DNA of 64,000 nucleotides, from assembly GCF_030406905.1 (NCBI RefSeq), contig NZ_CP129137.1, forward strand, positions 3,457,001 through 3,521,000, read 5' to 3'. This DNA comes from Streptomyces sp. HUAS CB01 (GTDB lineage Bacteria > Actinomycetota > Actinomycetes > Streptomycetales > Streptomycetaceae). A program made the translations under genes and the position numbers. The notes under the pieces were generated by a model, which saw only the letters and a list, made by a program, of their open reading frames with translations, was not told the origin of the DNA and made no database searches. The number at the start of each line of letters is the position of its first letter. Positions within the stretch are counted from its first letter, which is position 1. This document shows, piece by piece, positions 5,236 through 34,482 of this stretch.

Positions 5236-5250
5236 CTGACGGGCCGTCAT
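5236..5250. promoter_or_regulatory. Regulon operator site 1 (CTGACG-N3-CGTCAT)
   Basis: CTGACGGGCCGTCAT, one mismatch from the CTGACG-N3-CGTCAG palindrome shared by eight other sites here. It ends 18 bp upstream of the acyl-CoA dehydrogenase start, consistent with repressor binding over the promoter or transcription start. Confidence 0.7.
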
Positions 5251-5344
5251 GTTAGGGGTGGGGGGCGCAGATGCCCAGAGCGGGGCGTACGGGGTGAGGG
5301 CCGGGCGCGGGGGTGCCGCGTGCCGGCCGCCCGCAGCGCCCGGC

Positions 5345-5716
5345 TCAGCAGATCCCGCCGGGCGCCGCCGCGACCGCCTTCAGCAGGTCCCGCACGAGGT
5401 CGAAGTCGATCCCCTCGGTGCGGCGGAAGCGCAGGCACCCCTTGCCCATGTCCTGGTCCGCGAGCCGCGCCTCGAAGGCGTCCCGGACGTCGGGGCGCAT
5501 CAGATAGAAGGAGACGTACTGCTTCTGGTCGGCGAAGGCGATCTCGGGTTCCCCGCCCGGCCTGCGGTACGCGGGCATCCCGTACGCCATGACCTCCTCG
5601 TGGTCGCCCAGCTCGGTCAGGCACAGTTCGCGGATGCGCACGAGGGCGGTCGACCGGTCGGGATCGGCGACCTCCGCGAGGTAGCCGTCGACGTCTTCCG
5701 CAGCGGATCGGGCCAT
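5345..5716 (-). CDS. DUF1801-family (YdhG-like) protein
   Basis: A 123-residue protein with the DUF1801 pattern: an N-terminal helix with VDGYLAEV, then MAYGMPAYRR, an FADQKQYVSFYL strand and a C-terminal GKGCLRFRRTEGIDFDLV segment. Relatives such as YdhG are described as putative iron chaperones, but the biochemical role is poorly established. ATG 5716 was chosen because it begins the conserved domain; frames further upstream are only read-through. It lies between two operator sites, but its own start is 30 bp from site 2 on the opposite strand, so co-regulation with the divergent thiolase-fold gene is possible. Confidence 0.75.
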   Translation of the reverse strand: MARSAAEDVDGYLAEVADPDRSTALVRIRELCLTELGDHEEVMAYGMPAYRRPGGEPEIAFADQKQYVSFYLMRPDVRDAFEARLADQDMGKGCLRFRRTEGIDFDLVRDLLKAVAAAPGGIC

Positions 5717-5745
5717 GCCCCGAGGGTACCGCCGACCCCCTGCAT

Positions 5746-5760
5746 CTGATGTACCGTCAG
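5746..5760. promoter_or_regulatory. Regulon operator site 2 (CTGATG-N3-CGTCAG)
   Basis: CTGATGTACCGTCAG with flanking AT on both sides, one mismatch in the left arm. It ends only 4 bp before the start codon of the thiolase-fold gene and 30 bp from the DUF1801 start, so binding could affect both directions. Confidence 0.75.
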
Positions 5761-5764
5761 ATAC

Positions 5765-6940
5765 ATGCCTCGGAGTCAGCGCCATCCCCGCAAGGTCGCC
5801 GTCGTCGGCATATCCCTCTCGGACTGCGGTCGCGTCGACGGCCCCACCCCGTACGCCCTGCACGCCCAGGCCGCCCGTCGTGCCCTCGCCGACTCGGGTC
5901 TCGGCCGGGACGTCGTCGACGGCCTGGCCTCGGCCGGGCTGGGCACCCTCGCCCCCGCCGAGGTCGCCGAGTACCTGGGACTCCGGCCGCGCTGGGTGGA
6001 CTCGACCGCCGTCGGCGGCGCCACCTGGGAGGTCATGGCCGCTCATGCCGCCGACGCCGTCGCCGCCGGCCACGCGAACGCGGTACTCCTCGTCTACGGT
6101 TCGACGGCCCGCGCCGACATCCGCGCGGGCCGGCGCACCTCCGACCTCTCCTTCGGCGCACGCGGGCCGCTGCAGTTCGAGGTGCCGTACGGGCACACGC
6201 TGATCGCCAAGTACGCCATGGCGGCCCGGCGTCACATGCACGAGTACGGTACGACGGAGGAGCAGCTGGCCGAGGTCGCCGTCCAGGCGCGGGCGAACGC
6301 CTCCCACAACCCGGACGCGATGTTCCGCGACCCGATCACCGTGGACGACGTGCTGTCCGGGCCGGTCATCGCCGATCCGTTCACCAAGCTGCACTGCTGC
6401 ATCCGCAGTGACGGCGGCTGTGCGGTGCTGCTCGCGGCGGAGGAGTACGTGCCGGACACCGCCAAGGCACCGGTGTGGGTCCTCGGCACCGGTGAGCACG
6501 TGTCCCACACCACGATGTCGGAGTGGGACGACTTCACGGTCTCCCCGGCCGCGGTCAGCGGGCGGCTGGCGTTCGAACGGGCCGGCGTGCGCCCGGGGGA
6601 CATCGACATCGCCGAGGTCTACGACGCCTTCACCTACATGACGCTCGTGACGCTGGAGGACCTGGGTTTCTGCGCGAAGGGAGAAGGCGGGGAGTTCGTC
6701 GGGAAGGGCAGGCTGGGCCTGAAGGGGGAACTGCCGGTGAACACCGACGGCGGTGGGCTGTCCGCCTGCCATCCGGGCATGCGCGGCCTGTTCCTGCTGG
6801 TCGAGGCGGTGCGCCAACTGCGCGGGGAGGCCGGGGGGCACCAGGTGCGGCGGGCCGACGGCAGCGTCCCGGAGCTGGCCGTGGCCTCGGGCACCGGCGG
6901 CTGGTTCTGCTCCTCGGGGACCGTGGTGCTGGGCCGCTGA
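5765..6940 (+). CDS. Thiolase-fold lipid-transfer-type protein, probable CoA-thioester (retro-)aldolase
   Basis: A 391-residue SCP-x/lipid-transfer-type thiolase homologue. The nucleophilic Cys expected near residue 85 is absent (AVGGAT instead of a C-x-S-G motif), and the C-terminal Cys motif is replaced by GTGGWFCSSG. Kept are YDAFTY (286-291) and ACHPGM with His336. Loss of the cysteine together with Tyr residues in YDAFTY resembles Ltp2-type aldolases of steroid side-chain degradation, which pair with a DUF35 protein; a DUF35 gene lies at 12763-13320 under the same operator type. The aldolase function is inference. The start ATG directly follows operator site 2 with no clear ribosome site, suggesting a leaderless transcript. 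Confidence 0.83.
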   Translation: MPRSQRHPRKVAVVGISLSDCGRVDGPTPYALHAQAARRALADSGLGRDVVDGLASAGLGTLAPAEVAEYLGLRPRWVDSTAVGGATWEVMAAHAADAVAAGHANAVLLVYGSTARADIRAGRRTSDLSFGARGPLQFEVPYGHTLIAKYAMAARRHMHEYGTTEEQLAEVAVQARANASHNPDAMFRDPITVDDVLSGPVIADPFTKLHCCIRSDGGCAVLLAAEEYVPDTAKAPVWVLGTGEHVSHTTMSEWDDFTVSPAAVSGRLAFERAGVRPGDIDIAEVYDAFTYMTLVTLEDLGFCAKGEGGEFVGKGRLGLKGELPVNTDGGGLSACHPGMRGLFLLVEAVRQLRGEAGGHQVRRADGSVPELAVASGTGGWFCSSGTVVLGR

Positions 6941-6973
6941 ACCACACCGGCCAGGGCGGCGCGGGGGCCCGGA

Positions 6974-7639: not shown

Positions 7640-7649
7640 TGATCGGGGC

Positions 7650-12164: not shown

Positions 12165-12794
12165 ATGCGGCACACGCTGCCCTGGGTCCATGCGCTGCAC
12201 GACGATCCGGAGGCCATGCGCCGCTGCGCGGCCTCGTCCCATCTCCTGCTGCGCAGCAGTGCCGCGCGGGCGAAGCGTCTCCCGCCGGATGTCGTCGAGC
12301 GCCTGGCCCGGGACGAGGACCGGGTCGTGCGGCTGTTCCTGGCCGAGTCCTGCGACGACGCGCCCGCGTCCGTGCTGCTGGAGGTGTGGCTGTGGTGGGA
12401 CGGCAGCCTCAGCTTCCCGGGGAGGCCCCGCTCGCACCCGAACTTCCCGCGCCGGGATCTTCTCCGGTACGCGGACGATCCGCATCACCGGCTGCGTCAG
12501 CCGGCGTTGGACGATCCGGACTCGACGCCCGAGCTGGTGGAGCGCTTCAGCCGGGATCCCCACTGGGAGGTGCGGCGCCGGGCGGCGGAGGACCCGCGGC
12601 TGTCGACGGCGTCGGCGGTGCCCTTGCTCGACGACCCGCACGAATGGGTGCGCGTGACGGCGGTGCGGCACGGGCGGTTGCCCGCGCGCACGCTGGTGCG
12701 GCTGCTGCGGGACCTGAGGACGGTCCGTGACGCCCTGGTCAGCCCGACGCTTCCCGTCGCCGTCATGCGCCGGATGGCCGAGCCCTCCGGCTGA
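12165..12794 (+). pseudogene. Truncated leucine-rich-variant/HEAT-like repeat protein (3' remnant)
   Basis: About 210 codons of a repeat protein with recurring helical units of the type LPPDVVERLARDEDRVVR, STPELVERFSRDPHWEVRR and STASAVPLLDDPHEWVR. Full-length relatives, as I recall them, are around 400-500 residues and carry further N-terminal repeats that are absent here. The first ATG (12165) has no ribosome-binding site. Its 3' end overlaps the convergent DUF35 gene by 32 bp. It abuts the DUF5753 remnant head-to-head, which suggests one deletion removed both promoters and 5' ends. It could still be expressed as a short protein. Confidence 0.62.
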
Positions 12795-13320
12795 CGTCCG
12801 GCGCCGGGCGGAACACCGGCACCACCACTCCCCCGCCCTCCTCCCGGAAGGAGACCTCCAGCTCCATGCCGATGCGCAGGTCCGCCTCCGCGCACCCGAC
12901 GATCTCGGTCATCATCCGAGGCCCCTCGGCGAGATCGACGACGGCGGCGGTGTAGGGCGTGCGGGCGCCGAAGGGCGGAAGATCGTTCCGGTGGACGACG
13001 GACCAGGTGTAGAGGGTCGCCCGGCCGCCGGTGCGCTCCCAGGTGACGTCCTCGCTCCAGCAGTACGGGCAGAACTCGCGCGGGTAGTGGTGGGCGCGAC
13101 CGCACGCGCCGCAGCGGCGGATCAGCAGGCGGCCCTCGGCGGCGGCGTTCCACCATGGGCGGGTGAAGTCGTCGATGTCGGGGGTCGCCGCGGTCCGCTC
13201 CGCCGGAACCGCGCCCCGGTCCGCCGGGACCGCACTCCGGTCGGGGGGCGCAGCCGCCCCTGCGGGGGTCGCGGCCGTCCCGCCGGCACTGCTCCCGTCG
13301 CCGTTCCCGCGCGGGCTCAC
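12763..13320 (-). CDS. DUF35 OB-fold/zinc-ribbon acyl-CoA-associated protein
   Basis: A 185-residue protein: a rubredoxin-like zinc ribbon (C-GAC-GRAHHYPREFC-PYC) followed by an OB-fold with TLYTWSVVHRNDLPPF and PYTAAVVDLAEGPRMMTEI. DUF35 proteins bind acyl-CoA and form complexes with SCP-x thiolase-fold enzymes, for example in steroid side-chain aldolases. A natural partner is the cysteine-less thiolase-fold protein at 5765-6940. The GTG start overlaps the stop of the DoxX gene (GTGA). Unusual is an N-terminal Pro/Ala-rich leader of about 48 residues with imperfect repeats (VPADRGAVPAER) that the family lacks. Confidence 0.85.
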   Translation of the reverse strand: MSPRGNGDGSSAGGTAATPAGAAAPPDRSAVPADRGAVPAERTAATPDIDDFTRPWWNAAAEGRLLIRRCGACGRAHHYPREFCPYCWSEDVTWERTGGRATLYTWSVVHRNDLPPFGARTPYTAAVVDLAEGPRMMTEIVGCAEADLRIGMELEVSFREEGGGVVVPVFRPAPDVSRRARPSGA

Positions 13321-13769
13321 AGGAACAGTCCCAGCACGCTGTCGAGGGACCAGGTCTGCCACGACACGGCGAGCAGCGCGACGAGCGAGACAAGCGCCAT
13401 CATCGCGTTCTGCCCCTGCTCGGCCCAGTCGTGGATCATCAGGACCAGGTAGAGGAGATTGAGGACCAGCCCTCCGATCAGGGCGACCGGGGTGAGGAAC
13501 CCGGTGATCAGGCCGAGGCCGAGGGCGAGTTCGGCGTAGACGACGATGTACGCCATCGCCTTGGGGCGCGGGGCGACGATCCGGTCGAATCCGGACCTGA
13601 CCGCCGTCCAGCGGTGCTTCGCGGCGACATCGGCGGCCCAGGCGATGCCGGTGCCGCGCTCGAACCAGCCCTTCCTGTCCTTGTGCCTCCAGCTCTCCAG
13701 CCACCACAGGCCGAGGCCGATGCGCAGGACGGCGAGCCATTCGGCGCCGGTGAGCCAGATCGTCCGCAT
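13317..13769 (-). CDS. DoxX-like integral membrane protein
   Basis: A 150-residue membrane protein with four hydrophobic segments, beginning with WLAVLRIGLGLWWLESW and ending with LVSLVALLAVSWQTW, typical of DoxX/DoxD-like proteins. Some relatives form redox complexes in the membrane; the specific role here is unknown. ATG 13769 is preceded by GGGGAGGGG; an ATG six codons upstream would overlap that site. First gene of a two-gene operon with the DUF35 gene (GTGA overlap), reading away from operator site 3. Confidence 0.8.
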   Translation of the reverse strand: MRTIWLTGAEWLAVLRIGLGLWWLESWRHKDRKGWFERGTGIAWAADVAAKHRWTAVRSGFDRIVAPRPKAMAYIVVYAELALGLGLITGFLTPVALIGGLVLNLLYLVLMIHDWAEQGQNAMMALVSLVALLAVSWQTWSLDSVLGLFL

Positions 13770-13792: not shown

Positions 13793-13807
13793 CTGACGGT
13801 ACGTCAG
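13793..13807. promoter_or_regulatory. Regulon operator site 3 (perfect CTGACG-N3-CGTCAG), divergent
   Basis: CTGACGGTACGTCAG, perfect arms. It lies 23 bp upstream of the DoxX/DUF35 operon and 81 bp upstream of the divergent flavin monooxygenase gene, so one site may control both. Confidence 0.8.
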
Positions 13808-13888: not shown

Positions 13889-15076
13889 ATGCCCGACCAC
13901 AGAGCCATCGACCTCACCGACGACCGCCCGGTGTACGTCATCGGGGCCGGACCCGGCGGTCTCGCCGTGGCCGCCGCCCTGCGGGAGCGCGGGGTGCGGG
14001 CGGTCGTCCTGGAGAAGTCGGATTCCGTGGGCGCGTCCTGGCGCGGTCACTACGACCGGCTGCACCTGCACACGACCCGGCGCCTGTCGGGCCTGCCCGG
14101 CCTGCCCATGCCGCGCCGCTTCGGACGCTGGGTCTCCCGGGACGACGTGGTCCGCTACCTGGAGAAGTACGCCGAGTTCCACGAGCTGGAGCTGGTGACG
14201 GGCGTGGAGGTGTCCAGGATCGAGCCCGAGGGCTCCGACTGGGTGCTCCACGCGACCGGCGGCCGCCGGCTCACCGGGCGGGCCGTCGTGGTGGCGACCG
14301 GGTTCAACCACACGCCCCGTACACCGGACTGGCCCGGCCGGGACACGTACACGGGCGAGCTGCTGCACGCCTCCGCGTACCGCAACCCCGACCCGTACAC
14401 GGGCAAGGACGTGCTCGTCGTCGGAGTCGGCAACACGGGCGCGGAGATAGCGGCGGACCTGGCCGGGGCGGGAGCCGCGCGGGTGCGTCTGGCCGTGCGG
14501 ACCGCCCCGCACATCGTGCGCCGTTCGACCGCCGGCTGGCCGGCGCAGCGCACGGGGATCCTCGTGCGGCGGCTGCCCGTGCGGCTGGTGGACGCGGCGG
14601 GCCGGCTGATGGCGCGGGCGGCCGTGCCCGACCTGTCCGCCCAGGGGCTGCCGCGCCCCGAGGCGGGCCTGTACACACGCGTCCGGCAGGGCGCCATCCC
14701 CGTACAGGACGTGGGTCTGATCGACGCGGTCCGCACCGGGAAGGTGGAGCCGGTCGCCGCCGTCGACGCCTTCGACGACGACAAGGTGGTCCTCGCGGAC
14801 GGCTCCCGCATATCGCCGGACGCGGTCATCGCGGCCACCGGCTACCACCGTGCGCTGGAGCCGCTGGTGGGGCATCTCGGCGTACTGGACGAGCGCGGCC
14901 GGCCGGTCGTCCACGGCGGCCGGACCCCGCGCGAGGCCCCGGGCCTGTACTTCACGGGCTTCACCAACCCCATCAGCGGGATGCTCCGTGAAATGGCCCT
15001 GGACGCACGGAAGATCGCCAAGGCCCTCTCGAAGCGGCCTTCCGGGCCGGGCGAGGAGCGTCCGGGGCGCGGATGA
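13889..15076 (+). CDS. Flavin-containing (YUCCA/BVMO-like) monooxygenase
   Basis: A 395-residue flavoprotein with an FAD Rossmann motif GAGPGG (residues 19-24), the ATGFN strand near 136-140, a second NADPH Rossmann motif GVGNTG (179-184) and a late IAATGYH segment. This two-nucleotide layout is that of class B flavin monooxygenases (N-hydroxylating, YUCCA-type, Baeyer-Villiger relatives). It probably inserts oxygen into a pathway intermediate or substrate. ATG 13889 is used; GTG 13868 in the same frame is the alternative. TAGAGT at 13875-13880 could be a -10 box for a leaderless transcript. Diverges from DoxX/DUF35 across operator site 3. Confidence 0.87.
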   Translation: MPDHRAIDLTDDRPVYVIGAGPGGLAVAAALRERGVRAVVLEKSDSVGASWRGHYDRLHLHTTRRLSGLPGLPMPRRFGRWVSRDDVVRYLEKYAEFHELELVTGVEVSRIEPEGSDWVLHATGGRRLTGRAVVVATGFNHTPRTPDWPGRDTYTGELLHASAYRNPDPYTGKDVLVVGVGNTGAEIAADLAGAGAARVRLAVRTAPHIVRRSTAGWPAQRTGILVRRLPVRLVDAAGRLMARAAVPDLSAQGLPRPEAGLYTRVRQGAIPVQDVGLIDAVRTGKVEPVAAVDAFDDDKVVLADGSRISPDAVIAATGYHRALEPLVGHLGVLDERGRPVVHGGRTPREAPGLYFTGFTNPISGMLREMALDARKIAKALSKRPSGPGEERPGRG

Positions 15077-16768: not shown

Positions 16769-16783
16769 CTGACATGCCGTCAG
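16769..16783. promoter_or_regulatory. Regulon operator site 4a (CTGACA-N3-CGTCAG)
   Basis: CTGACATGCCGTCAG, one mismatch in the left arm, first of a tandem pair. The 553-bp gap 16289-16841 otherwise contains only GC-rich low-complexity sequence and no gene I can support. Confidence 0.75.
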
Positions 16784-16792: not shown

Positions 16793-16807
16793 CTGACTAT
16801 GCGTCAG
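16793..16807. promoter_or_regulatory. Regulon operator site 4b (CTGACT-N3-CGTCAG)
   Basis: CTGACTATGCGTCAG, second of a tandem pair with centres 24 bp apart; it ends 34 bp before the acyl-CoA synthetase start. Two sites on one face or nearly so would permit cooperative binding; this is the only promoter here with two sites for one direction. Confidence 0.75.
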
Positions 16808-16841: not shown

Positions 16842-19064
16842 ATGCTTGGATCAACCCACGGCACCTTGACCACCGACCTCCGCGCCCGAGTGGTGGCCTG
16901 CGGGCAGCAGACCGGGGCAGCCGTCCACGGCGTCACCGCGGCCGAGGGCGACCTCGACGTCAGCGGCCGTCCGCTGTACGCGCCCGTACCCGACCTCGAC
17001 CGCTTCTTCCGGCCCGAGGCGGTCGCCGTCGTGGGCGCCTCCGACGCCGACGGCCGGCCCAACACCGGCATCACCCGGCAGCTGATCGCCTGGGCCGCGC
17101 GGGTCGGGGCGAGACTGCACCCGGTCCATCCGACCCGTACCGCCGTCTTCGGGCTGCCCTGCGTGCCGTCCGTCGCGGAACTGCCCGAGCCGGTGGACCT
17201 CGCCGTCCTGCTCGTCGGCGATCCGCTGCCCGTGATCGAGGAACTCGGCCAGGCGAAGGTGAAGTTCGCCGTCGCCTTCGCCTCCGGGTTCGCCGAGACC
17301 GGCGAGGCCGGCGCCGACGCCCAGCGGCGGCTCGCGGCGGCCGTGGAACGGTCCGGGCTGCGGTTGCTCGGCCCGAACACCAACCTCAACGCCTTCGAGC
17401 GGTTCCGCGACGACCTCGAAGGGCCCGCCATCGCGCTGATCACCCAGTCCGGACACCAGGGCCGCCCGGTCTTCACCATGCAGGAACTCGGCGTACGGCT
17501 CTCCCACTGGGCGCCGACGGGCAACGAGGCAGACCTGGAGACCTCGGACTTCATCTCGTACTTCGCCGGACGGCCCGAGGTCGGGGCGATCGCCTGCTAC
17601 GTGGAGGGCCTCAAGGACGGCCGCTCCTTCCTGCTCGCAGCGGACCGGGCCGCCCGCAGCCGCGTCCCGGTCGTCGCGGTGAAGGTGGGCCGCACCGAGG
17701 CGGGCGCCCGGACGGCCGCCTCGCACACCGGCAAGCTCACGGGGGCCGACCAGGTCGTGGACGCGGCGATGCGCCAGTACGGGGTGATCCGCGTCGACGG
17801 GCTCGACGAACTCCAGGACACCGCCGCCCTGCTGGCCCGGGCCCGCCGGCCCGCCGCCGACGGTGTCGTCGTCTACTCGATCTCCGGCGGGACCGGCGCG
17901 CACTTCGCGGACCTCGCCACCGCCGCCGGGCTGCGGCTGCCCCAGCTGTCCGCGGCACGCCAGGCCGAACTGCACGAGTGGATACCGGACTACCTGAACG
18001 TCGCGAACCCCGTCGACAACGGCGGGCACCCCGTCGGCGACTGGCGCGGCCGGAAGATCATCGACGCGATCCTCGCCGACCCCGCCGTCGGCGTGCTGAT
18101 CTGCCCGATCACCGGCCCCTTCCCGCCCATGAGCGACAAGCTCGCCCAGGACCTGGTGGACGCCGCGGAGGCCACGGACAAGCTGGTGTGCGTGGTGTGG
18201 GGTTCACCGGTCGGGACGGAGGAGGCGTACCGGACGACGCTGCTCGGCTCGTCCCGGGTCGCGACCTTCCGCACGTTCGGCAACTGCATCACGGCCGTCC
18301 GGGCGTACTTCGACCACCACCGCTTCACCACCGGCTACCGCTCCCCCTTCGACGAGGCGCCCCGCACCCTGTCCCCCTCCTTCCGCAAGGCACAGGCGCT
18401 GCTCCGGCCCGGCCACCGGCTCAGCGAGCACGCGGCGAAGCAGCTGCTGCGCGCGTACGGGATCCGCGTGCCGCGCGAGCAGCTGGTGACCAGCGCGGCG
18501 GCCGCCGTGCGGGCGGCGGGGCTGGTCGGCTACCCGGTGGTGATGAAGGCGTCCGCGCCGCAGCTCGCGCACAAGACGGAGCTGGGCCTGGTCAAGATCG
18601 GGCTGACCTCGGCCAGCCAGGTCCGTGACACCTACCGGGAACTGACCGACATCGCCCGTTACGAGGGGGTGGACCTGGACGGCGTCCTCGTCTGCCAGAT
18701 GGTCGAGCGCGGAGTCGAGATGGTCGTCGGTGTCACGCAGGACGAGCTGTTCGGGCCGACGGTGACGGTCGGTCTCGGCGGGGTGCTCGTGGAAGTGCTG
18801 CGGGACGTCGCGGTAAGGGTCCCGCCGTTCGGCGAGGACCAGGCCCGCGCCATGCTCGCCGAGCTGCGCGGCCGGGCCCTGCTGGACGGGGTCAGGGGCG
18901 GGCCGCCCGTGGACGTGGACGCGCTCGTCGAGGTCGTCCTGCGGGTCCAGCGGATGGCGCTGGAGCTCGGCGGGGACCTCTCCGAGCTGGACATCAACCC
19001 CCTGATGGTCCTGCCGCGCGGGCAGGGCGCGGTGGCCCTGGACGCGCTGGCGGTGTGCCGGTGA
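16842..19064 (+). CDS. ADP-forming acyl-CoA synthetase (acetate-CoA ligase family)
   Basis: A 740-residue fused synthetase: an N-terminal CoA-binding Rossmann domain (from FRPEAVAVVGASDADGRP), a succinyl-CoA-ligase-like central region with ITQSGHQG and SHTGKLTG, and a C-terminal ATP-grasp domain (from LLRAYGIRVPREQ to LSELDINPLMVLP). Such enzymes activate a carboxylic acid to its CoA thioester with formation of ADP and phosphate. ATG 16842 has AAGGAG about 11 nt upstream; an in-frame GTG at 16812 has none. It is followed by an enoyl-CoA hydratase with GTGA overlap, and preceded by tandem operator sites, so it belongs to the regulon. Confidence 0.88.
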   Translation: MLGSTHGTLTTDLRARVVACGQQTGAAVHGVTAAEGDLDVSGRPLYAPVPDLDRFFRPEAVAVVGASDADGRPNTGITRQLIAWAARVGARLHPVHPTRTAVFGLPCVPSVAELPEPVDLAVLLVGDPLPVIEELGQAKVKFAVAFASGFAETGEAGADAQRRLAAAVERSGLRLLGPNTNLNAFERFRDDLEGPAIALITQSGHQGRPVFTMQELGVRLSHWAPTGNEADLETSDFISYFAGRPEVGAIACYVEGLKDGRSFLLAADRAARSRVPVVAVKVGRTEAGARTAASHTGKLTGADQVVDAAMRQYGVIRVDGLDELQDTAALLARARRPAADGVVVYSISGGTGAHFADLATAAGLRLPQLSAARQAELHEWIPDYLNVANPVDNGGHPVGDWRGRKIIDAILADPAVGVLICPITGPFPPMSDKLAQDLVDAAEATDKLVCVVWGSPVGTEEAYRTTLLGSSRVATFRTFGNCITAVRAYFDHHRFTTGYRSPFDEAPRTLSPSFRKAQALLRPGHRLSEHAAKQLLRAYGIRVPREQLVTSAAAAVRAAGLVGYPVVMKASAPQLAHKTELGLVKIGLTSASQVRDTYRELTDIARYEGVDLDGVLVCQMVERGVEMVVGVTQDELFGPTVTVGLGGVLVEVLRDVAVRVPPFGEDQARAMLAELRGRALLDGVRGGPPVDVDALVEVVLRVQRMALELGGDLSELDINPLMVLPRGQGAVALDALAVCR

Positions 19065-21703: not shown

Positions 21704-22330
21704 ATGGACGGTGTGATGGGACACGCAGGGATGGCCGCGACCGCCGTCCGCTACCTCCGCTCCGTCGGCGCCGCCACGGCGGCCGGACCGGCCTTCGACG
21801 CGCTGCCGCGTCCCGTGCTGCGCACCGTCGGGGAGGACGAGCGGCTGCCGGTCGCTCCTGCCGAATTCCGACGTGTGCTGGGGCAGTTCGCGAGCGGCGT
21901 CACGGTGATCACGGCCCAGGACGAGGAGGGCAGCGGCCCGGCGGGCTTCGCCTGCCAGTCCTTCGCCTCGCTGTCGCTCGACCCGCCCCTGGTGGTGTTC
22001 ATGGTCGCCCGTACGTCGACGACCTGGCCGCGCATCGCCCGCGCGGGGGCGTTCTGCGTCAACGTCCTCGGCGCGGACCAGGGCGGGCTCTGCCGCGCCT
22101 TCGCGGTGAGCGGCGCCGACAAGTTCGCGGGCGTCGGCCACACCCCGGCCCCGGTGACCGGCTCTCCCCGTCTCGCCTCCGTCCCCGCCTGGATCGACTG
22201 CACGATCAGCACGGTCCACACCGGTGGCGACCATCTGATCGTGGTGGGGCGGGTCGAGGCCCTGGGCGCCGAGGAACACGGCGATCCGCTGCTGTTCCAC
22301 CGGGGACGCTTCGGGCGCTTCGCGCCGTAG
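21704..22330 (+). CDS. Flavin reductase-like (HpaC/HsaB-type) protein
   Basis: A 208-residue protein with a C-terminal flavin-reductase split barrel: FASGVTVITAQDEEG, GFACQSFASLSLDPPLVVFMV and the late GDHLIVVGRVEAL strand. These enzymes use NAD(P)H to reduce free FMN/FAD for a partner monooxygenase; in steroid degradation HsaB plays this role. No matching two-component monooxygenase lies next to it; the flavin monooxygenase at 13889 has its own NADPH domain. ATGs at 21704, 21716 and 21731 are in frame; the first lies 5 bp after the operator and has only a weak AGG upstream, so the start is uncertain. The first 45 residues are not part of the barrel. Confidence 0.85.
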   Translation: MDGVMGHAGMAATAVRYLRSVGAATAAGPAFDALPRPVLRTVGEDERLPVAPAEFRRVLGQFASGVTVITAQDEEGSGPAGFACQSFASLSLDPPLVVFMVARTSTTWPRIARAGAFCVNVLGADQGGLCRAFAVSGADKFAGVGHTPAPVTGSPRLASVPAWIDCTISTVHTGGDHLIVVGRVEALGAEEHGDPLLFHRGRFGRFAP

Positions 22331-26056: not shown

Positions 26057-27106
26057 TCAGAACGTCAGCACGCCCCGCGCCACCCGTCCGTGCTCCGCGT
26101 CCTCGGCCGCCTTGGCGAAGTCCTCCACCGGGTACGTCTCCGTGACCAGTTCGTCCAGCAGCAGCCGCCCCTCCCGGTAGAGCCGGGCGTACAGCGCGAT
26201 GTCGTGCTGCGGGCGGGAGGAGCCGTAGCGGCAGCCGAGGACGGCCTTGTCCAGGAACATCGCCGCGGGCAGGAAGGTCGCCTCCGCGGTCGGCGCCGGC
26301 ATGCCGAGCAGGACCGCCTGCCCGTGGCGGTCCAGGAGGTCGATCGCCCGGCGCACCAGTCCCGTGTGCCCGACGCACTCGAAGACGTGCTGCGCGCCGT
26401 GCGGCAGCACGTCCCGTACCGCGTCCACGGAGGTGAGGAAGTGCGTCGCGCCGAAGATGCGGGCCGTCTCCTCCTTCGCCGGGTTGGTGTCGACGGCGAC
26501 GATCGTCACCGCGCCCGCGAGGCGGGCCCCCTGCAGCACGTTCAGCCCGATGCCGCCGGCGCCGATGACCACGACCGTGTCGCCGAGGGCCACCCTGGCC
26601 CGGTTGAGGACGGCTCCCACGCCGGTCAGCACCCCGCAGCCGATGAGCGCGGCGGAGGTGAGGGGGATGCCGTCGGGGATCCGCACCGCCTGGACGGCCT
26701 CGACCAGGGTGCGTTCCGCGAAAGCCGAGTTGGCGGCGAACTGGTAGAGCGGCTTCCCCGCCCGGGTGAACGGCCGCCCCGGCCTGCCGATCGAGGCCCG
26801 GCACATCGTCGGCCGGCCCCGGTCGCACTCCGCGCACGCGCCGCAGTTGGCGAGCGTCGACAGCGACACATGGTCGCCCGGCGCGACATGGGTGACGCCC
26901 GCGCCGACGTCCTCGACGACGCCCGCGCCCTCGTGCCCCAGCACGACGGGCACGGGGAAGGGGATGGTGCCGTCGATCACCGACAGGTCGCTGTGGCAGA
27001 GCCCCGCGGCCACGACGCGGACGAGCACCTCGCCCGGGGCCGGTTCGCGTATCTCCAGGTCGTCGGCGACCTCGACCCGTTCGCCGTCGAAGACGACACC
27101 TCTCAC
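26057..27106 (-). CDS. Zinc-dependent alcohol dehydrogenase (MDR superfamily)
   Basis: A 349-residue class III-like MDR dehydrogenase: catalytic-zinc ligands in GLCHSDL and LGHEGAGVVE, structural zinc cysteines in CGACAECDRGRPTMC, and the nucleotide motif GAGGIGLNVLQGARLAGA. It oxidises an alcohol, or the mirror reaction, with NAD(P), probably acting on a pathway intermediate. The GTG start overlaps the stop of the upstream acyl-CoA dehydrogenase (GTGA), making it third in the SDR-dehydrogenase-ADH operon read from operator site 6. Confidence 0.9.
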   Translation of the reverse strand: MRGVVFDGERVEVADDLEIREPAPGEVLVRVVAAGLCHSDLSVIDGTIPFPVPVVLGHEGAGVVEDVGAGVTHVAPGDHVSLSTLANCGACAECDRGRPTMCRASIGRPGRPFTRAGKPLYQFAANSAFAERTLVEAVQAVRIPDGIPLTSAALIGCGVLTGVGAVLNRARVALGDTVVVIGAGGIGLNVLQGARLAGAVTIVAVDTNPAKEETARIFGATHFLTSVDAVRDVLPHGAQHVFECVGHTGLVRRAIDLLDRHGQAVLLGMPAPTAEATFLPAAMFLDKAVLGCRYGSSRPQHDIALYARLYREGRLLLDELVTETYPVEDFAKAAEDAEHGRVARGVLTF

Positions 27107-28281
27107 CGCAGCTCCCTGGGTAGGCCGAGCACCCGCTCGGCGATGATGTTCCGCTGGATCTCGTCCGAGCCGCCGTAGATCGTGTCGGCGCGGGTGAAGA
27201 GGAACAGCCGTTGCAGCGCGTCCAGTTCGTACGAGGGCGACCAGGCGCCCGGTCCGGCGGCGGCGGCCGCGCCCCGTACCTGCACGGCCAGTTCACCGAG
27301 CCGCTGGTGCCAGCCGCCCCACAGCAGCTTCGCGACGCTCGGCGCGCCCGGGTCGCCGGTGCGGCCGAGGGTGCGCAGCGCGTTCCAGCGCATGGTGCGC
27401 AGTTCGGCCCACTGGCGGATCAGGCGGTCCCGGAGCACGGGGTCGTCGTCGAGGACGCCGCCTGCGGCGGCGAGGCGCAGGACACGGCCCAGTTCCTCCT
27501 CGAAGCCGATCTGCTGGACGAGTGTGGACACCCCGCGTTCCAGGGCGAGCAGGCCCATGGCGACGCGCCAGCCGTTGCCCTCGCCGCCGACCGTTCCGAC
27601 GGCCTCGGCGCCGTCGAGGAAGACCTCGTTGAACTCGCTGGTGCCGGACATCTGCCGGATGGGCCGTACGTCGATGCGGCCCGGCTGGTCCATCGGCACG
27701 AGCAGGAACGACAGTCCGCGGTGGCGGGTGGAGCCGGGCTCGGTGCGGGCCAGGACGAAGCACCAGTGCGCCTCGCGGGCGAGCGACGTCCAGATCTTCT
27801 GTCCGGTGACGCGGTAGCGGCCGCCGTCCGCGACGGCCGTGGTCCGCACGGACGCCAGGTCGGAGCCCGCGCCGGGCTCGCTGTAGCCCTGGCACCAGAA
27901 CTCCTCGCCGCGGGCGATGCCGGGCAGATGGCGGGCCTGCTGGTCCGTGTCGCCGTGGGCGATCAGGGTCGGGGCGAGCAGGTTCTCGCCGATGTGGCCG
28001 AGCCGTGCGGGGGCGCGGGCCCGGGCGTACTCCTCGGCCCAGACCACCTGCTGGGTCAGGGTGGCACGGCGGTTGCCGTGGTCGGCGTCCCAGCCGAGTC
28101 CGATCCATCCGCCGGCGCCGAGCTCCCGCTCCCAGGCGAGCCGGGTGCGGGCGCTCTCGTGCTCGCTGCCGGAGTCGCCGCGCCCGGCGGCGTCCGCGAA
28201 CGTGCCGGTGAGACGGTCCTCCAGCCAGGCGCGTGCCTCGTGCCGGAAGGCGCTGTCGTCGGGGCCGAAGGCGAAGTCCAT
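27103..28281 (-). CDS. Acyl-CoA dehydrogenase
   Basis: A 392-residue FAD acyl-CoA dehydrogenase with WCQGYSEPGAGSDLASVRTTA (FAD/substrate loop), VTGQKIWTSLAREAHWCFVL and a C-terminus ending QRNIIAERVLGLPREL. This last motif marks the subfamily that includes the FadE-type subunits of steroid and cyclic-acid degradation. The start is ATG 28281, 15 bp after the SDR stop; the next gene overlaps by GTGA. Middle gene of the operon behind operator site 6. Confidence 0.9.
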   Translation of the reverse strand: MDFAFGPDDSAFRHEARAWLEDRLTGTFADAAGRGDSGSEHESARTRLAWERELGAGGWIGLGWDADHGNRRATLTQQVVWAEEYARARAPARLGHIGENLLAPTLIAHGDTDQQARHLPGIARGEEFWCQGYSEPGAGSDLASVRTTAVADGGRYRVTGQKIWTSLAREAHWCFVLARTEPGSTRHRGLSFLLVPMDQPGRIDVRPIRQMSGTSEFNEVFLDGAEAVGTVGGEGNGWRVAMGLLALERGVSTLVQQIGFEEELGRVLRLAAAGGVLDDDPVLRDRLIRQWAELRTMRWNALRTLGRTGDPGAPSVAKLLWGGWHQRLGELAVQVRGAAAAAGPGAWSPSYELDALQRLFLFTRADTIYGGSDEIQRNIIAERVLGLPRELR

Positions 28282-28296: not shown

Positions 28297-29208
28297 TCAA
28301 CGGTTCGGGCGGTCGCCGGCGGCGGCCGCCTTCGCCATCGCCTCGAGTCGGGCGAGCATGGGCATCGGGTCGGTGCCGACGGTCCCGGGGAGGAAGTCCG
28401 CGATCCGCTCCGGGGTCCACGCGCCGTCGGCGTAGGCCGCCCGGAGTTCGCGGGGCTGGGCCCAGACCGCGATCTTGGGGCCGGCGATCGTGTAGACCTG
28501 CCCGGTGATGTTCTCCGCGCGCGCCCGCTCGGACAGCAGGTAGACGACGAGTGCCGCCACGTCCTCCGGCTCCCCGATCTCCTTGAGCTCCATGGGGACG
28601 TTGGCCGACATACGGGTCCGGGCGACGGGCGCGACCGCGTTCGCCGTCACGCCGTACTTGTGCAGTCCGAGTGCCGCGCTGCGCACCAGCGAGATGATGC
28701 CGCCCTTGGCCGCCGAGTAGTTGGCCTGGGCGACGGAGCCCTGGTGGTTGCCGCTGGTGAAGCCGATCAGGGTGCCGCCGCCCTGTGTGCGCATGACCGC
28801 GGCGGCCGCGCGGAAGACGGTGAAGGTGCCCTTGAGGTGGGTGGCGACGACCGGGTCCCATTCGTCCTCGGTCATGTTGAAGAGCATGCGCTCGCGCAGG
28901 ATGCCGGCGACGCACACGGCGCCGTCGAGCCGTCCGAACCGGGCGAGCGCGGTGTCGACGACCCGCTGCCCGCCCTCCATCGTCGAGATGTCGTCGGCGA
29001 CGGCGACGGCCTCTCCGCCCGCGGCCTCGATCTCCTTGACCACCGCCTCGGCGACCTCCGAGGCCGGTTCGCCGCCGTCGACGGAGACGCCGTGGTCGTT
29101 GACGACGACCTTCGCCCCCTCGGCGGCGCACGCGAGTGCCACGGCGCGGCCGATGCCGCGTCCGGCGCCGGTCACGGCGACGGTCCTGCCTGCCAGGAAG
29201 TTCCCCAC
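28297..29208 (-). CDS. Short-chain dehydrogenase/reductase (3-hydroxyacyl-CoA dehydrogenase-like)
   Basis: A 303-residue SDR: nucleotide motif TGAGRGIGRAVAL, NDHGVSVDGG, a catalytic Ser region FTSGNHQGSVAQ followed by YSAAK (Tyr and Lys). The NDHGVS-type loop and length match the 17-beta-HSD type 4/multifunctional beta-oxidation group, which oxidise 3-hydroxyacyl-CoAs, and the C-terminal extension ends in a Lys/Ala-rich helix. GTG 29208 has GGAAGGGG upstream; upstream in-frame codons would cross operator site 6. First gene of the SDR-dehydrogenase-ADH operon. Confidence 0.9.
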   Translation of the reverse strand: MGNFLAGRTVAVTGAGRGIGRAVALACAAEGAKVVVNDHGVSVDGGEPASEVAEAVVKEIEAAGGEAVAVADDISTMEGGQRVVDTALARFGRLDGAVCVAGILRERMLFNMTEDEWDPVVATHLKGTFTVFRAAAAVMRTQGGGTLIGFTSGNHQGSVAQANYSAAKGGIISLVRSAALGLHKYGVTANAVAPVARTRMSANVPMELKEIGEPEDVAALVVYLLSERARAENITGQVYTIAGPKIAVWAQPRELRAAYADGAWTPERIADFLPGTVGTDPMPMLARLEAMAKAAAAGDRPNR

Positions 29209-29228: not shown

Positions 29229-29243
29229 CTGACGGTCCGTTAG
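29229..29243. promoter_or_regulatory. Regulon operator site 6 (CTGACG-N3-CGTTAG), divergent
   Basis: CTGACGGTCCGTTAG, one mismatch in the right arm. It lies 20 bp upstream of the SDR start (minus strand) and 48 bp upstream of the cyclase start (plus strand). Confidence 0.75.
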
Positions 29244-29291: not shown

Positions 29292-30218
29292 ATGTCACTG
29301 CCGGAGGAGTTCCACGAGATCGCCGAGCGCGTCAACAACTGGGGGCGCTGGGGCGACGACGACGAGATCGGGACGCTCAACCTGATCACCGACGACGTGG
29401 TGCGGGAGGCCGCCGCCGCGGTGCGGGCCGGCCGGCGCGTTCCGCTCGCCCTGCCGCTCCGGCAGGACGGCGTCCAGACCGGGATGATCCCGGGGCGGGT
29501 GAACCCCCTCCACACCATGGTGCAGATCAACCAGGAGCTGTTCGGCCCCGGCACGGTCGCGACCAGCGACGACGCCGTGACGATGGGGCTCCAGGCGGCC
29601 ACCCACTGGGACGCGCTCACCCATGTCTCGCACTCGGGCAGGATCTGGAACGGCCGCCCCGCGGACAGCATCACCGCCCACGAGGGCGCCCGCTTCAGCG
29701 GCATCGAGACGGTCCGCAGCCTCGTCTCGCGCGGTGTGCTGCTCGACGTGGCGCGCGCCAAGGGCGTGGACCGGCTGCCGGGCGACCACGCCGTCGCCCC
29801 GGAAGACCTCGCCGAGGCGGAGGAGTTCGGGGGCGTGCGGGTACGGCCGGGCGACGTGGTGCTCGTCAGGACCGGTCAGATACGGGCGTACCTCGCCGGC
29901 GACAGGCACGCGTACGCCCATCCCTCGCCGGGCCTCTCGGTCCGTGCGCCCGAGTGGTTCCGCGCCCGCGACACGGCCGCCGTCGCGAACGACACGCTCA
30001 CCTTCGAGATCTTCCCGCCCGAGATCGAGAACCTCTGGCTGCCCGTGCACGCCCTGGACCTGGTGGAGATGGGCATGCTGCAGGGCCAGAACTGGAACCT
30101 GGAGGAGCTCTCCACGGCCTGCGCGGAGGAACGGCGGTACGCCTTCCTGCTGTCGGCCACACCCGAGCCGTTCGTCGGCGGCACGGGGACACCGGTCGCG
30201 CCGGTGGCGGTGCTCTGA
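29292..30218 (+). CDS. Metal-dependent cyclase/kynurenine-formamidase-like hydrolase
   Basis: A 308-residue member of the cyclase (PF04199) family, whose metal site is marked by ATHWDALTHVS, with a second conserved stretch ITAHEGARFSGIETVRSLVSRGVLLD and VRPGDVVLVRTGQ. Members hydrolyse amides or lactones, or cyclise. It is probably a ring-opening or lactone-hydrolysing step of the pathway; that is inference. ATG 29292 follows AGGGAG; ATG 29265 is an in-frame alternative. Diverges from the SDR operon across operator site 6. Confidence 0.85.
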   Translation: MSLPEEFHEIAERVNNWGRWGDDDEIGTLNLITDDVVREAAAAVRAGRRVPLALPLRQDGVQTGMIPGRVNPLHTMVQINQELFGPGTVATSDDAVTMGLQAATHWDALTHVSHSGRIWNGRPADSITAHEGARFSGIETVRSLVSRGVLLDVARAKGVDRLPGDHAVAPEDLAEAEEFGGVRVRPGDVVLVRTGQIRAYLAGDRHAYAHPSPGLSVRAPEWFRARDTAAVANDTLTFEIFPPEIENLWLPVHALDLVEMGMLQGQNWNLEELSTACAEERRYAFLLSATPEPFVGGTGTPVAPVAVL

Positions 30219-31172: not shown

Positions 31173-32039
31173 TCAGAGGGCGGCCGCCAGCGCCTCCTCC
31201 GCCTGCGCGGCCGTCAGGCCCAGCTCGGCGCGCACCCAGGCCCGTTTGAGGTGCAGATGCACCTCGGCCTCCCAGGTGAATCCCATGCCGCCGTGCACCT
31301 GGAGGCAGTCCCGGGCGCCCTGGACCGCGGCCTCGTCGGCGAGGAGCTTGGCGCCCGCGATCTCCACGGGATCGGCGGTCACGGCGGCGGCGTACACGGC
31401 GGCGCGGGCCAGTTCGGTCCGCACCAGCATCTGCGCGCAGAGGTGCTTGACCGCCTGGAACGCGCCGATGGGCCGGCCGAACTGCTCGCGCTCCTTCGCG
31501 TACCGCACGGCCATCGCCGTGGTGCGCCCGGCGGAGCCCAGCTGTTCGGCCGCCGTCAGCAGCACCGCCGCCGGGTCCGGGTCGCCGGGAGGCGCGGAGG
31601 GAATCCGGTGCAGCGGCGTGAGCGGGTCGACGGACCGTACGGGCACGGCGTCCGAGGCGTCCCCGAGCACCACGTCGGCCTCGTCCAGCCAGGGCACGAG
31701 CCCCCCGTCGGCCCGGGTGACGACCGTCGTCCCGTCGGCGGCGCCCGCAACGGTACCCGCGGCGAGGTGCGTGGCCACCAGCGGACCCGTCAGCAGCACC
31801 CGTCCCGCCTCCTCGAAGACCAGTGCTGCCTCGGGGAGTCCGAGCCCCACACCGCCCTCCGCCTCCGGCAGCCGCAGCGAGAAGAACCCGGTCCGGCCGA
31901 GCTCCCGCCACAGGGCCCGGTCGATCCGCGCCCCGGCCGTCCGGAGGGCGTCCGGGGCGCAGCGGGCCGACAGCAGCTCCCGGACGCCCCCGCGCAAGGC
32001 CCGCTGGTCCTCCGTCGGTTGGAAGTGCACGGCCCTCAC
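31173..32039 (-). CDS. Acyl-CoA dehydrogenase, small subunit of a probable heteromeric pair
   Basis: A 288-residue, shortened acyl-CoA dehydrogenase: ALWRELGRTGFFSLRLPEAEGG near the N-terminus, an abbreviated middle beta domain, then AKEREQFGRPIGAFQAVKH and VHGGMGFTWEAEVHLHLKRA. Shortened members form alpha2-beta2 complexes with a full-length partner in steroid side-chain degradation (FadE28/FadE29 type). The partner is the next gene upstream, which it overlaps by GTGA. The two subunits together should carry one set of FAD and substrate sites. Last gene of the amidohydrolase operon. Confidence 0.87.
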   Translation of the reverse strand: MRAVHFQPTEDQRALRGGVRELLSARCAPDALRTAGARIDRALWRELGRTGFFSLRLPEAEGGVGLGLPEAALVFEEAGRVLLTGPLVATHLAAGTVAGAADGTTVVTRADGGLVPWLDEADVVLGDASDAVPVRSVDPLTPLHRIPSAPPGDPDPAAVLLTAAEQLGSAGRTTAMAVRYAKEREQFGRPIGAFQAVKHLCAQMLVRTELARAAVYAAAVTADPVEIAGAKLLADEAAVQGARDCLQVHGGMGFTWEAEVHLHLKRAWVRAELGLTAAQAEEALAAAL

Positions 32040-33169
32040 CGCTCCTTCGGCAGGCCGAGGATCCGCTCGGCGACGATGTTCCGCTGGATCTGCGAGGTGC
32101 CGGCGGCGATGGTGTACGACAGCGACGACAGCCGGTCGAGGGTCCACTCGCGGGACAGGTCGAGCGCGTCCGGGCCGAGCACCTCGGCGGCCGTGTCGTA
32201 CAGCTCCTGGCGGGCGTGGGAGTAGCGGAGCTTGAAGACCGAGCCGCCGGTGCCGGGAACGCCGCCGGTGGCCTCGGCCTCGCTGACGTTCCACTGCGTG
32301 AGCCGCCACAGGGCGCCGAACTCCGCGTTCAGCCTGCCGAGCCGGCGGCGCAGGACGGCGTCGTCCCAGCGACCGTCCTCCCGTGCCGTGCGGGCCAGTG
32401 CGGCGAGCGTGCGGCGGCAGGCGACGACCTCGCCGACGAAGGCGGTGCCGCGTTCGAAGGACAGCGTCACCATCGTGACCCGCCAGCCGTCGTTCTCCTC
32501 CCCCACCCGGTTCGCGACCGGCACCCGCACCTCGTCGAGGAAGACCTCCGCGAACTCGGCCGAGCCCGCGAGGGTGCGCAGCGGCCGGACGGTGACGCCG
32601 GGCGCGTCCATCGGCATCGCCAGCCAGCTGATGCCGCGGTGGCGGGGCGCCTCCGGGTCGGTGCGCACGAGCAGTTCGCACCAGTCGGCGACCTCGGCGT
32701 GCGACGTCCAGATCTTGGCGCCGGTCACGACGTAGGAGTCGCCGTCCCGGACGGCCCTGGTCCGCAGGGAGGCGAGGTCGGAGCCGGCGTCCGGCTCGCT
32801 GAAGCCCTGGCACCAGATCTCGTCGCCGCGCAGGATCGGCGGCAGCCAGCGCTCACGCTGTTCGCGCGTGCCCTCGGCGGCGACGGTCGGGCCGGCGTGC
32901 AGCAGTCCCACGAAGTTCGCGCCGACGTACGGCGCCCCGGCCTTCTCGGTCTCCTCCAGGAAGATCAGCCGCCGGGTCGGGGACGCGTCCCAGTGCACGT
33001 CCGCGTATCCGGCGTCGTAGAGCGCCCGCTGCCAGGCGCTGTCGTGGGCGCGGCGGGCCGGCCAGTCGTCGGGCGGGGGCCGGGGCGGGAGTTCGGGCAG
33101 GGCGACGCCGAGCCAGTCCCGCAGCCCGGCCCGGAAGGCCTCCTCCTCCTCCGTGTACGTGAGGTCCAC
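32036..33169 (-). CDS. Acyl-CoA dehydrogenase, large subunit of a probable heteromeric pair
   Basis: A 377-residue FAD acyl-CoA dehydrogenase with WCQGFSEPDAGSDLASLRT, VVTGAKIWTSHAEVADWC and a C-terminus QRNIVAERILGLPKER. Between YADVHW and PTRRLIFLEETEKAGAP the usual glycine-rich loop (of the EYGGRGA type) is shortened by about six residues, which is odd for the family. It overlaps both neighbours (TAGTG with the amidohydrolase stop; GTGA with the small subunit), so all three are tightly coupled. Confidence 0.88.
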   Translation of the reverse strand: MDLTYTEEEEAFRAGLRDWLGVALPELPPRPPPDDWPARRAHDSAWQRALYDAGYADVHWDASPTRRLIFLEETEKAGAPYVGANFVGLLHAGPTVAAEGTREQRERWLPPILRGDEIWCQGFSEPDAGSDLASLRTRAVRDGDSYVVTGAKIWTSHAEVADWCELLVRTDPEAPRHRGISWLAMPMDAPGVTVRPLRTLAGSAEFAEVFLDEVRVPVANRVGEENDGWRVTMVTLSFERGTAFVGEVVACRRTLAALARTAREDGRWDDAVLRRRLGRLNAEFGALWRLTQWNVSEAEATGGVPGTGGSVFKLRYSHARQELYDTAAEVLGPDALDLSREWTLDRLSSLSYTIAAGTSQIQRNIVAERILGLPKER

Positions 33170-34365
33170 TACGTGTCCAGGTCCAGTCCGAGCATCCGGA
33201 TCGCGTTGCCGCGCATCAGCTTGTGGACGGTCTCGTCGTCGAGGTCCTTCACATGGTCCAGGGCGACCTCCCTGGTGTGCGGGAAGGTCGAGTCGACGTG
33301 CGGGTAGTCCGTCTCGAAGGTGGCGTTGTCGCGCCCCACGACGTCGAGCGAGGCAACACCGTGCTTGTCGCGGAAGAAGCAGCAGAAGATCTGCCGGTAG
33401 TAGTACGTGGACGGCGGCTCGGGGACGAGGTCGCGCACGCCGCCCCAGGCCCGGTGCTCCTGCCACACGTCGTCCGCGCGTTCCAGGGCGTACGGGATCC
33501 AGCCCATCTGGCCCTCGCTGTACGCGAGCTTGAGCGCCGGGAACTTCACCAGCACCCCGCTGAAGAGGAAGTCCATCATCGACGCCATCGCGTTGTTGAA
33601 GGAGAGGGACGCCTGGACGGCGGGAGGGGCGTCGGGCGAGGCGGCCGGCATCTGGGAGGACGAGCCGATGTGCATGTTGACGACCGTGCCGGTCTCCTGG
33701 CAGGCGGCGAAGAACGGGTCCCAGTAGCCGGAGTGGATCGACGGCAGCCCCAGGTGGGTGGGGATCTCGGAGAAGGTCACGGCGCGCACGCCACGGGCCG
33801 CGTTGCGCCGGATCTCGGCCACCGCGAGGTCGATGTCCCACAGGGGGATGATGCAGAGGGGGATGAGGCGGCCGCCGCTGTCGCCGCACCACTCCTCCAC
33901 CATCCAGTCGTTGTAGGCGCGGACGCACGCGAGCGCGACCTCCTTGTCCTCGGCCTCGGCGAAGGTCTGGCCGCAGAAGCGGGGGAAGGTCGGGAAGCAC
34001 AGGGACGCCTCGACGTGGTTGAGGTCCATGTCCTCCAGCCGGGCCCTGGGGTCCCAGCAGCCGCGCCGCATCTCGGCCCGGGTGATCCCCTCCAGCGTCA
34101 TGTCGTCGCGGTCGAAGCCGACGGCGGCGATGTTGCGCTTGTACGGGAACTTCAGGTCCTCGTAGATCCACCAGTCCGTGGGCGGCCCGTCCGGGTCCAT
34201 CGTGATCTGGTACTTCCCGCCGACGTAGGCGAGCTCGCCGATGCCCGCGGTGAGGGGCCGGGGTCCGCGGTCCCGGTACTTCGCCGGCAGCCAGGTCTCG
34301 AAGAGATGCGCGGGCTCGATCACATGGTCGTCGACGCTGATGATCCGAGGCAGTTCCCGTTCCAT
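33169..34365 (-). CDS. Amidohydrolase family (PF04909-type) metal-dependent hydrolase
   Basis: A 398-residue TIM-barrel amidohydrolase: ISVDDHVIEPAHLFETWLP at the N-terminus, LDMDLNHVEA-type strand (seen as MDLNHVEASLCFP), VVNMHIGSSS for a metal His, and ETDYPHVDSTFPHT near the end. Members perform hydrolysis or decarboxylation in aromatic and steroid-like pathways. ATG 34365 lies 24 bp from operator site 7. First gene of a three-gene operon with the acyl-CoA dehydrogenase pair. Confidence 0.87.
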   Translation of the reverse strand: MERELPRIISVDDHVIEPAHLFETWLPAKYRDRGPRPLTAGIGELAYVGGKYQITMDPDGPPTDWWIYEDLKFPYKRNIAAVGFDRDDMTLEGITRAEMRRGCWDPRARLEDMDLNHVEASLCFPTFPRFCGQTFAEAEDKEVALACVRAYNDWMVEEWCGDSGGRLIPLCIIPLWDIDLAVAEIRRNAARGVRAVTFSEIPTHLGLPSIHSGYWDPFFAACQETGTVVNMHIGSSSQMPAASPDAPPAVQASLSFNNAMASMMDFLFSGVLVKFPALKLAYSEGQMGWIPYALERADDVWQEHRAWGGVRDLVPEPPSTYYYRQIFCCFFRDKHGVASLDVVGRDNATFETDYPHVDSTFPHTREVALDHVKDLDDETVHKLMRGNAIRMLGLDLDT

Positions 34366-34389
34366 CGGGCCCCTCCGTTCGACACATTT

Positions 34390-34404
34390 CTGACGGGTCG
34401 TCAG
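34390..34404. promoter_or_regulatory. Regulon operator site 7 (perfect CTGACG-N3-CGTCAG)
   Basis: CTGACGGGTCGTCAG, 24 bp upstream of the amidohydrolase operon. One of two perfect sites in the same divergent intergenic region (see site 8). Confidence 0.8.
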
Positions 34405-34467
34405 ACAGCAGGCTAGCTCCGCACCCCTGGACCGACAAGGCGACGAGCCCTACGCTTCCGGCGTTAT

Positions 34468-34482
34468 CTGACGATCCGTCAG
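34468..34482. promoter_or_regulatory. Regulon operator site 8 (perfect CTGACG-N3-CGTCAG)
   Basis: CTGACGATCCGTCAG with flanking AT, 25 bp upstream of the AMP-forming acyl-CoA synthetase start. Its centre is 78 bp from that of site 7, so each divergent operon has its own copy. Confidence 0.8.

Follow-up and report, generated by a model that had tools for sequence, protein, structure and literature searches.

The question raised by this locus is whether a set of short palindromes ahead of catabolic genes serves one regulator and, if so, which protein that is. The locus is a stretch of 64,000 nucleotides from Streptomyces sp. HUAS CB01 (contig NZ_CP129137.1, positions 3,457,001 to 3,521,000), hereafter the window, in which a sequence-only reading had listed nine copies of the 15-bp palindrome CTGACG-N3-CGTCAG and proposed that they define an undescribed catabolic regulon. 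On the sequence comparisons reported here, the palindromes are very probably the operators of a single regulon, with the TetR-family protein encoded at 2474-3121 as its regulator.

All nine palindromes were recovered, at 5236, 5746, 13793, 16769, 16793, 21684, 29229, 34390 and 34468; four are exact (13793, 21684, 34390 and 34468) and the remaining five carry one mismatch. The window holds no further match with at most one mismatch, and at two mismatches 14 matches were found against 8.1 expected from shuffled sequence, which is near noise. Genes were called with a home-made codon-usage caller. By these calls none of the nine sites is inside a gene, and the distance from site centre to the closest called start is 12-66 nt, so the intergenic placement stands and the earlier figure of 5-50 bp from a start is about right. 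The choice of start matters at site 5236, where an alternative ATG at 5250, further upstream, would overlap the palindrome.

Six additional sites lie shortly before the window (at 3411432, 3439796, 3439872, 3441593, 3445744 and 3450975 in genome coordinates), which brings the total at up to one mismatch to 15 within 80 kb, a stretch that starts 46 kb before the window. A symmetrised matrix was built from these 15 sites; because it was trained on them their scores are circular, and the evidence comes from tests in other genomes or from simple counts of mismatches rather than from matrix scores of the training sites. When 181 kb around the window was scanned with the matrix, the 15 sites scored 20.6 to 33.8 and the next best match, at 13.1, lay on the start codon of the TetR gene. 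The same 181 kb, to which one-by-one examination of one-mismatch sites was confined, contains 16 sites at this level, one of which (3556383) is inside a called gene. The flanks are AT-leaning, as had been noted: of 30 half-site flanks, 18 have T at -1 and 18 have A at -2.

The 8.1 Mb genome has 15 exact copies of the motif, against none for a reversed control and 0.83 expected from base composition, so that the motif is commoner than chance; with one mismatch allowed there are 113 matches, against 35 for the control. The 80 kb stretch, 1% of the genome, holds eight of the 15 exact copies and 15 of the 113 matches (hypergeometric p of about 6e-13 for both sets alike, for a stretch picked after the data had been seen). 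Seven exact sites lie outside it. Five of them precede, by 25-188 nt, genes of the same classes: a DUF35-thiolase operon, a MaoC-alcohol dehydrogenase-SDR operon (at 188 nt), a ferredoxin-reductase-like flavoprotein, whose site also touches the gene that ends before it, and two luciferase-like oxidoreductases. Two are harder to place: the first is about 140 nt past a glutamine synthetase-like gene, and the second is at a gene end, with another gene starting 163 nt away. The proposed regulon is supported and is larger than had been stated, reaching upstream of the window and elsewhere in the genome.

Conservation was assessed in 104 related loci, made up of 80 from named contigs (79 labelled Streptomyces; TetR protein identity 89-96%), 20 centred on the TetR gene and four stretches from genome G055. 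The loci are related to one another, and L138 and L161 look like one contig counted twice, so that the counts are not independent. With at most one mismatch, seven sites were found in 1.56 Mb of genic sequence and 353 in 345 kb outside genes; avoidance of genes thus holds here as in the 181 kb. A site was counted as kept if it lay within 250 nt of the first gene of an operon. By this measure it is kept ahead of the AMP-forming ligase (61 of 62), a thiolase (61 of 61), the second thiolase (site 5746; 78 of 79), the acyl-CoA dehydrogenase (site 5236; 77 of 81), the DoxX-like gene (33 of 33) and the flavin monooxygenase (FMO)-like gene (23 of 33), both served by site 13793, and the ADP-forming synthetase (site 16793; 32 of 35). 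Retention is partial for the flavin reductase (site 21684; 8 of 16) and DUF35 (12 of 45). No site was found ahead of control genes (AfsK-like kinase 0/100, glyoxalase 0/85, PNPOx 0/67, and the operon-internal DUF35 0/63 and enoyl-CoA hydratase 0/64), nor ahead of the F420 quinone reductase (0/80), a further PNPOx (0/14), a further enoyl-CoA hydratase (0/21) or MFS (0/8).

Sites are kept ahead of orthologues in other genera as well as other species. In G055, which belongs to a second genus of the family, the cluster is syntenic and all 15 sites recur, one with two mismatches; both site pairs are retained, namely the pair spaced by 24 bp and the pair between the amidohydrolase and AMP-ligase genes. 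Among the 20 TetR-centred loci, each of 20 kb, seven (from G060, G072, G113, G116, G012, G073 and G081) are without the main gene set and none of these has a site scoring above 20; in the remaining 13, some or all of the gene set is present, as are sites above that score. A further conserved companion of the sites is a protein of 298 residues (L032:10498-11394, minus strand), encoded divergently from a site-bearing SDR gene. It has no Pfam match, is 82% identical to its counterpart in G055 and 55-72% identical to those in four loci of family f18, and stands beside a site every time.

The candidate regulator gene (2474-3121, plus strand) sits mid-cluster. Its product matches TetR_N at 26.7 bits (cut-off 24) and TetR_C_38 (PF19352) at 243.5 bits (cut-off 23.9; 7e-73), and its predicted structure is an all-helical, EthR-like TetR fold with a mean predicted local distance difference test score of 91.6; structure comparison gave EthR as the nearest relative and pointed to no ligand. 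The helix-turn-helix residues TSxATFYQYF are invariant across 25 aligned proteins. Over the start codon of the gene CTGACG-NN-ATGACAG is present in 101 of 101 loci, in the window as the weak site CTGACGGCATGACAG (2466-2480, plus strand), and its TAAGCT or TAAACT box has the register seen at the target operators; autoregulation through it is proposed. Because this site carries two mismatches, a scan allowing at most one detects it in only 1 of 101 loci. Of the two TetR genes that had been put forward as candidates, the present one gains support and that at 60723-61337 was rejected, nothing near it scoring above 9. The gene is found in all 150 family genomes, as a single match in 146 and as two or three in G022, G074, G078 and G124, and presence or absence within the Streptomycetaceae therefore cannot single it out.

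By gene order the regulator is the probable orthologue of SCO4421 of S. coelicolor; it adjoins the afsK region, with a kinase carrying PQQ repeats two genes away. A passage of PMC3878966 places the TetR gene SCO4421 close to afsK and describes its expression as WhiA-dependent and occurring in spores.

Many operators, when oriented to their genes, start inside a TANNNT box (e.g. TAATCT or TAACAT). Of 698 site sides, 191 have the dinucleotide TA at -4/-3, where it gives TANNNT with a near-invariant operator T; 116 have it at -3/-2 and 82 at -10/-9, and each of the remaining offsets from -24 to -1 accounts for 0.4-4%. Since many sites overlap a -10 box, repression is likely, and blocking of the promoter fits a good share of the sites, not all. 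From this arrangement we infer that a TetR dimer would occupy ATCTGACGNNNCGTCAGAT-like sites at, and often overlapping, the -10 box or transcription start, and that when bound it would block RNA polymerase at roughly 20 operons. It would repress its own gene weakly, through the degenerate site on the start codon, and would probably be released by an acyl-CoA or a related pathway intermediate. The regulated set would be one of CoA-thioester and flavin/F420 catabolism, parts of which resemble steroid side-chain and diterpenoid enzymes.

In a class sample of 197 genomes the TetR was detected at E ≤ 1e-15 in 37, including 21 from outside the family; 12 of these 21 (40-53% identity) were taken with their flanks. 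Seven of the 12 have a site around the start that scores above 13, against one of 30 other TetR genes drawn from eight genomes (Fisher p 2e-4), and that lone gene has four core mismatches. With at most one core mismatch a site is near the start in nine of the 12, the second hit in L267 included. The neighbours vary by family (SDR, luciferase-like, alcohol dehydrogenase and acyl-CoA dehydrogenase genes) and several have sites of their own.

Co-occurrence of regulator and sites was seen in family f14, where matching proteins are named from Frankiaceae or from metagenome-assembled genomes of Mycobacteriales. At least two A/T-flanked sites are present in seven of seven f14 genomes with the TetR and in one of five without it (p 0.01), and all 23 f14 sites examined fall within 102 nt of a called start. 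A Pfam tally of the f14-derived downstream proteins, which took 37 of 42 target proteins (five from f13 were excluded), gave eight acyl-CoA dehydrogenases, five luciferase-like proteins, three SDR and three DUF35. Outside the Streptomycetaceae as a whole, at least two flanked sites were found in 12 of 21 genomes with the TetR and in one of 160 without it; with f13 excluded the figures are seven of 16, all seven being f14, and one of 160. In the f18 loci L257-L260 a variant operator, CTGTCGACCCGTCAG or CTGGTGACCCGTCAG, stands between a luciferase-like gene and a conserved gene of unknown function, and CTGACGNNCCGTCGG is near the TetR start in three of the four; the f18 operator may have drifted together with its regulator.

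The same string also occurs where no operator would be expected, and this bears on whether the palindromes might instead be RNA-level or structural elements such as terminator hairpins or repeats. Among the 150 family genomes, copies of the exact motif reach 127 in a single genome. In several genera (g14, g4 and g6) it is often on stop codons or within genes, and in G081, G003 and G005 (loci L099-L127) and G230 and G200 (L299-L318) it is abundant at gene ends or in genes, the gene-end copies often having stop codons inside the palindrome arms; the copies in these five genomes may be terminator hairpins or some element that has nothing to do with the operator. Bare motif counts across genomes were dropped as evidence for this reason. 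Requiring A/T flanks did not remove the non-promoter copies in f13, where nine of 20 flanked sites (ten each from G230 and G200) are within 40 nt of a stop codon, eight are deep in genes and three are elsewhere, and five f13 genomes were therefore set aside in the co-occurrence argument. As an account of the window a structural element is nevertheless highly improbable, given that there and in the relatives the sites are just upstream of starts, avoid genes, often overlap -10-like boxes and are absent ahead of operon-internal genes. That they are chance palindromes of a GC-rich genome would agree with the near-chance number of two-mismatch matches in the window; it is refuted by the exact and one-mismatch counts, the clustering and the orthologous conservation, and we give it next to no weight.

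A more serious alternative, although still an unlikely one, is that the operators are real and are bound by a regulator encoded elsewhere, with the neighbouring TetR as a bystander at the afsK locus. At least 85 TetR_N matches are present in the window's own genome, SCO4421 is linked to sporulation in the passage of PMC3878966 cited above, and its deletion is said there to give no overt phenotype, its function being called unclear. Streptomycetaceae genomes without the main gene set keep the TetR gene and have few promoter-type sites: among 16 exact sites in G060, G072, G113, G116 and G012, three precede a called start by no more than 100 nt and 13 are at gene ends or inside genes, from which it follows that the TetR of these genomes has few targets or another role. 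The regulator's own site is degenerate, with two mismatches, and shares bases with coding sequence and with a likely -10 box; its conservation could therefore have other causes. The distant comparison has weak points too. L265 and L266 have no site near the TetR start, 137 of 2400 random windows in the same loci exceed the threshold of 13, the 12 orthologues are not independent (four are from f18, three from f14 and two from f13), and in f13 the background of the string is high and the sites are mostly non-promoter. Almost no exact flanked sites occur in f18, f4 and f22, which have the TetR, and G289 (68% complete) has five sites with no TetR detected. The TANNNT register, finally, is seen at four of 16 sites in the 181 kb and at two of the nine in the window (5236 and 16793). 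All these observations weigh against the TetR at 2474-3121. What speaks for it over a regulator encoded elsewhere is that distant orthologues with other neighbours bear the palindrome at their own start, which 29 of 30 other TetR genes do not. Nor do other genes of the locus offer a better candidate: no site is near the TetR gene at 60723, and the PucR gene of the cluster was rejected, as it has no match at the same position in G055.

The proposed repression by the TetR at 2474-3121 can be compared with known systems. KstR and KstR2 are TetR repressors of steroid catabolism in mycobacteria and rhodococci. The likeness lies in a TetR protein and a cluster of CoA-thioester catabolic genes whose promoters bear many short palindromic operators, and in enzyme types that are found here also (a FadD3-family ligase, paired acyl-CoA dehydrogenases and a thiolase with DUF35). 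The difference lies in the operator sequence and in the membership of the window regulator in PF19352; the name KstR is absent among 27 PDB sequence matches of the TetR (E ≤ 0.01), several of which carry generic names only. EthR of Mycobacterium tuberculosis shares 18-20% identity with the window protein, and its operator is long and rich in repeats, unlike a set of many 15-bp palindromes. As with other TetR repressors, palindromes are present at the target promoters and, in degenerate form, at the regulator's own. SCO4421 has the same place beside afsK and is matched by gene order; the passage of PMC3878966 gives no operator or regulon for it. Open-access literature on the motif, SCO4421, PF19352, afsK with TetR, and DitZ/PtmU3 yielded nothing on this regulon, and within that literature the description of it as undescribed holds.

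The cluster surrounds the afsK-afsR locus, with an AfsR-like gene at 3445907-3448870 and an AfsK-like gene at 3455572-3457962 (in the window up to 962) on contig G000:C1. The former encodes a 987-residue Streptomyces antibiotic regulatory protein that is AfsR by its match of 1471 bits to the solved AfsR in the PDB; the kinase we take to be AfsK from its architecture and place. One operator is 156 nt upstream of the AfsR-like gene, a placement that is not conserved (1 of 9 loci). The cluster includes a FadD3-family ligase (826 against a cut-off of 657), and the thiolase just upstream of the window has the lipid-transfer protein 6ok1 as its nearest relative (333 bits). The 6ok1 protein and the Tcur proteins (Tcur3481 and Tcur3483) act on steroid side chains, and DitZ and PtmU3 act on diterpenoids. 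To judge from the enzymes matched, the substrates may be CoA esters of polycyclic or alicyclic acids, which is a guess. Likely SCO4421 orthologues would thereby gain a precise predicted operator and roughly 20 predicted target operons, and a widespread, unassigned CoA-dependent catabolic pathway in Streptomyces is indicated, flanking a well studied antibiotic-control locus. A wider proposal is made tentatively, and we regard it as rather doubtful: the SCO4421-type TetR at the afsK-afsR locus may be the master repressor of an unrecognised catabolism of polycyclic isoprenoid acids (steroid-, diterpenoid- or hopanoid-like) in many Streptomyces, with regulator and operator reused in Frankiaceae-like actinobacteria, which would tie this catabolism both to sporulation and to the antibiotic-regulation locus.

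The genes beside the operators in the window were assigned from Pfam matches unless stated otherwise. The operator at 5236-5250 precedes an acyl-CoA dehydrogenase (3922-5217, minus strand; ATG 5250 a possible start; best PDB match Tcur3481, 108 bits), first in an operon whose second gene encodes a member of the F420H2-dependent quinone reductase family (3434-3922, minus). That at 5746-5760 precedes a thiolase-fold protein (5765-6940, plus; Thiolase_C_1; PDB thiolase 4u4e, 323 bits). The exact operator at 13793-13807 is between a DoxX-like gene (13317-13769, minus; 21.7 bits, under the Pfam cut-off of 23.6), which is followed by a DUF35/ChsH2-type OB-fold protein (12763-13320, minus), and the FMO-like flavin monooxygenase (13889-15076, plus). 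The pair at 16769-16783 and 16793-16807, whose 24 bp spacing is the one kept in G055 and for which cooperative binding is possible, is ahead of the ADP-forming acyl-CoA synthetase (ATP-grasp; 16842-19064, plus) and an enoyl-CoA hydratase (19055-19927, plus).

The exact operator at 21684-21698 precedes the flavin reductase (21704-22330, plus). That at 29229-29243, with a counterpart in G055, is between divergent genes: on the minus strand an operon of SDR dehydrogenase (28297-29208), acyl-CoA dehydrogenase, PimC-like but under the cut-off (27103-28281), and zinc alcohol dehydrogenase (26057-27106), and on the plus strand a PF04199 cyclase/hydrolase (29292-30218). The two exact operators at 34390-34404 and 34468-34482, each with a G055 counterpart, separate an amidohydrolase operon from the AMP-forming acyl-CoA synthetase (34508-36028, plus) and a TOBE-domain molbindin-like protein (36057-36479, plus). 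The amidohydrolase-2 protein (33169-34365, minus) has DitZ and PtmU3 as nearest solved relatives (PDB 8uyr, 200 bits; 6omp, 138 bits); it is followed by an acyl-CoA dehydrogenase related to Tcur3483 (173 bits) and 4x28 (171 bits) (32036-33169, minus) and by a second acyl-CoA dehydrogenase (31173-32030, minus). Within the catabolic cluster there is also a phosphoribosylanthranilate isomerase-like gene (PRAI family), at 20950-21558 of the window.

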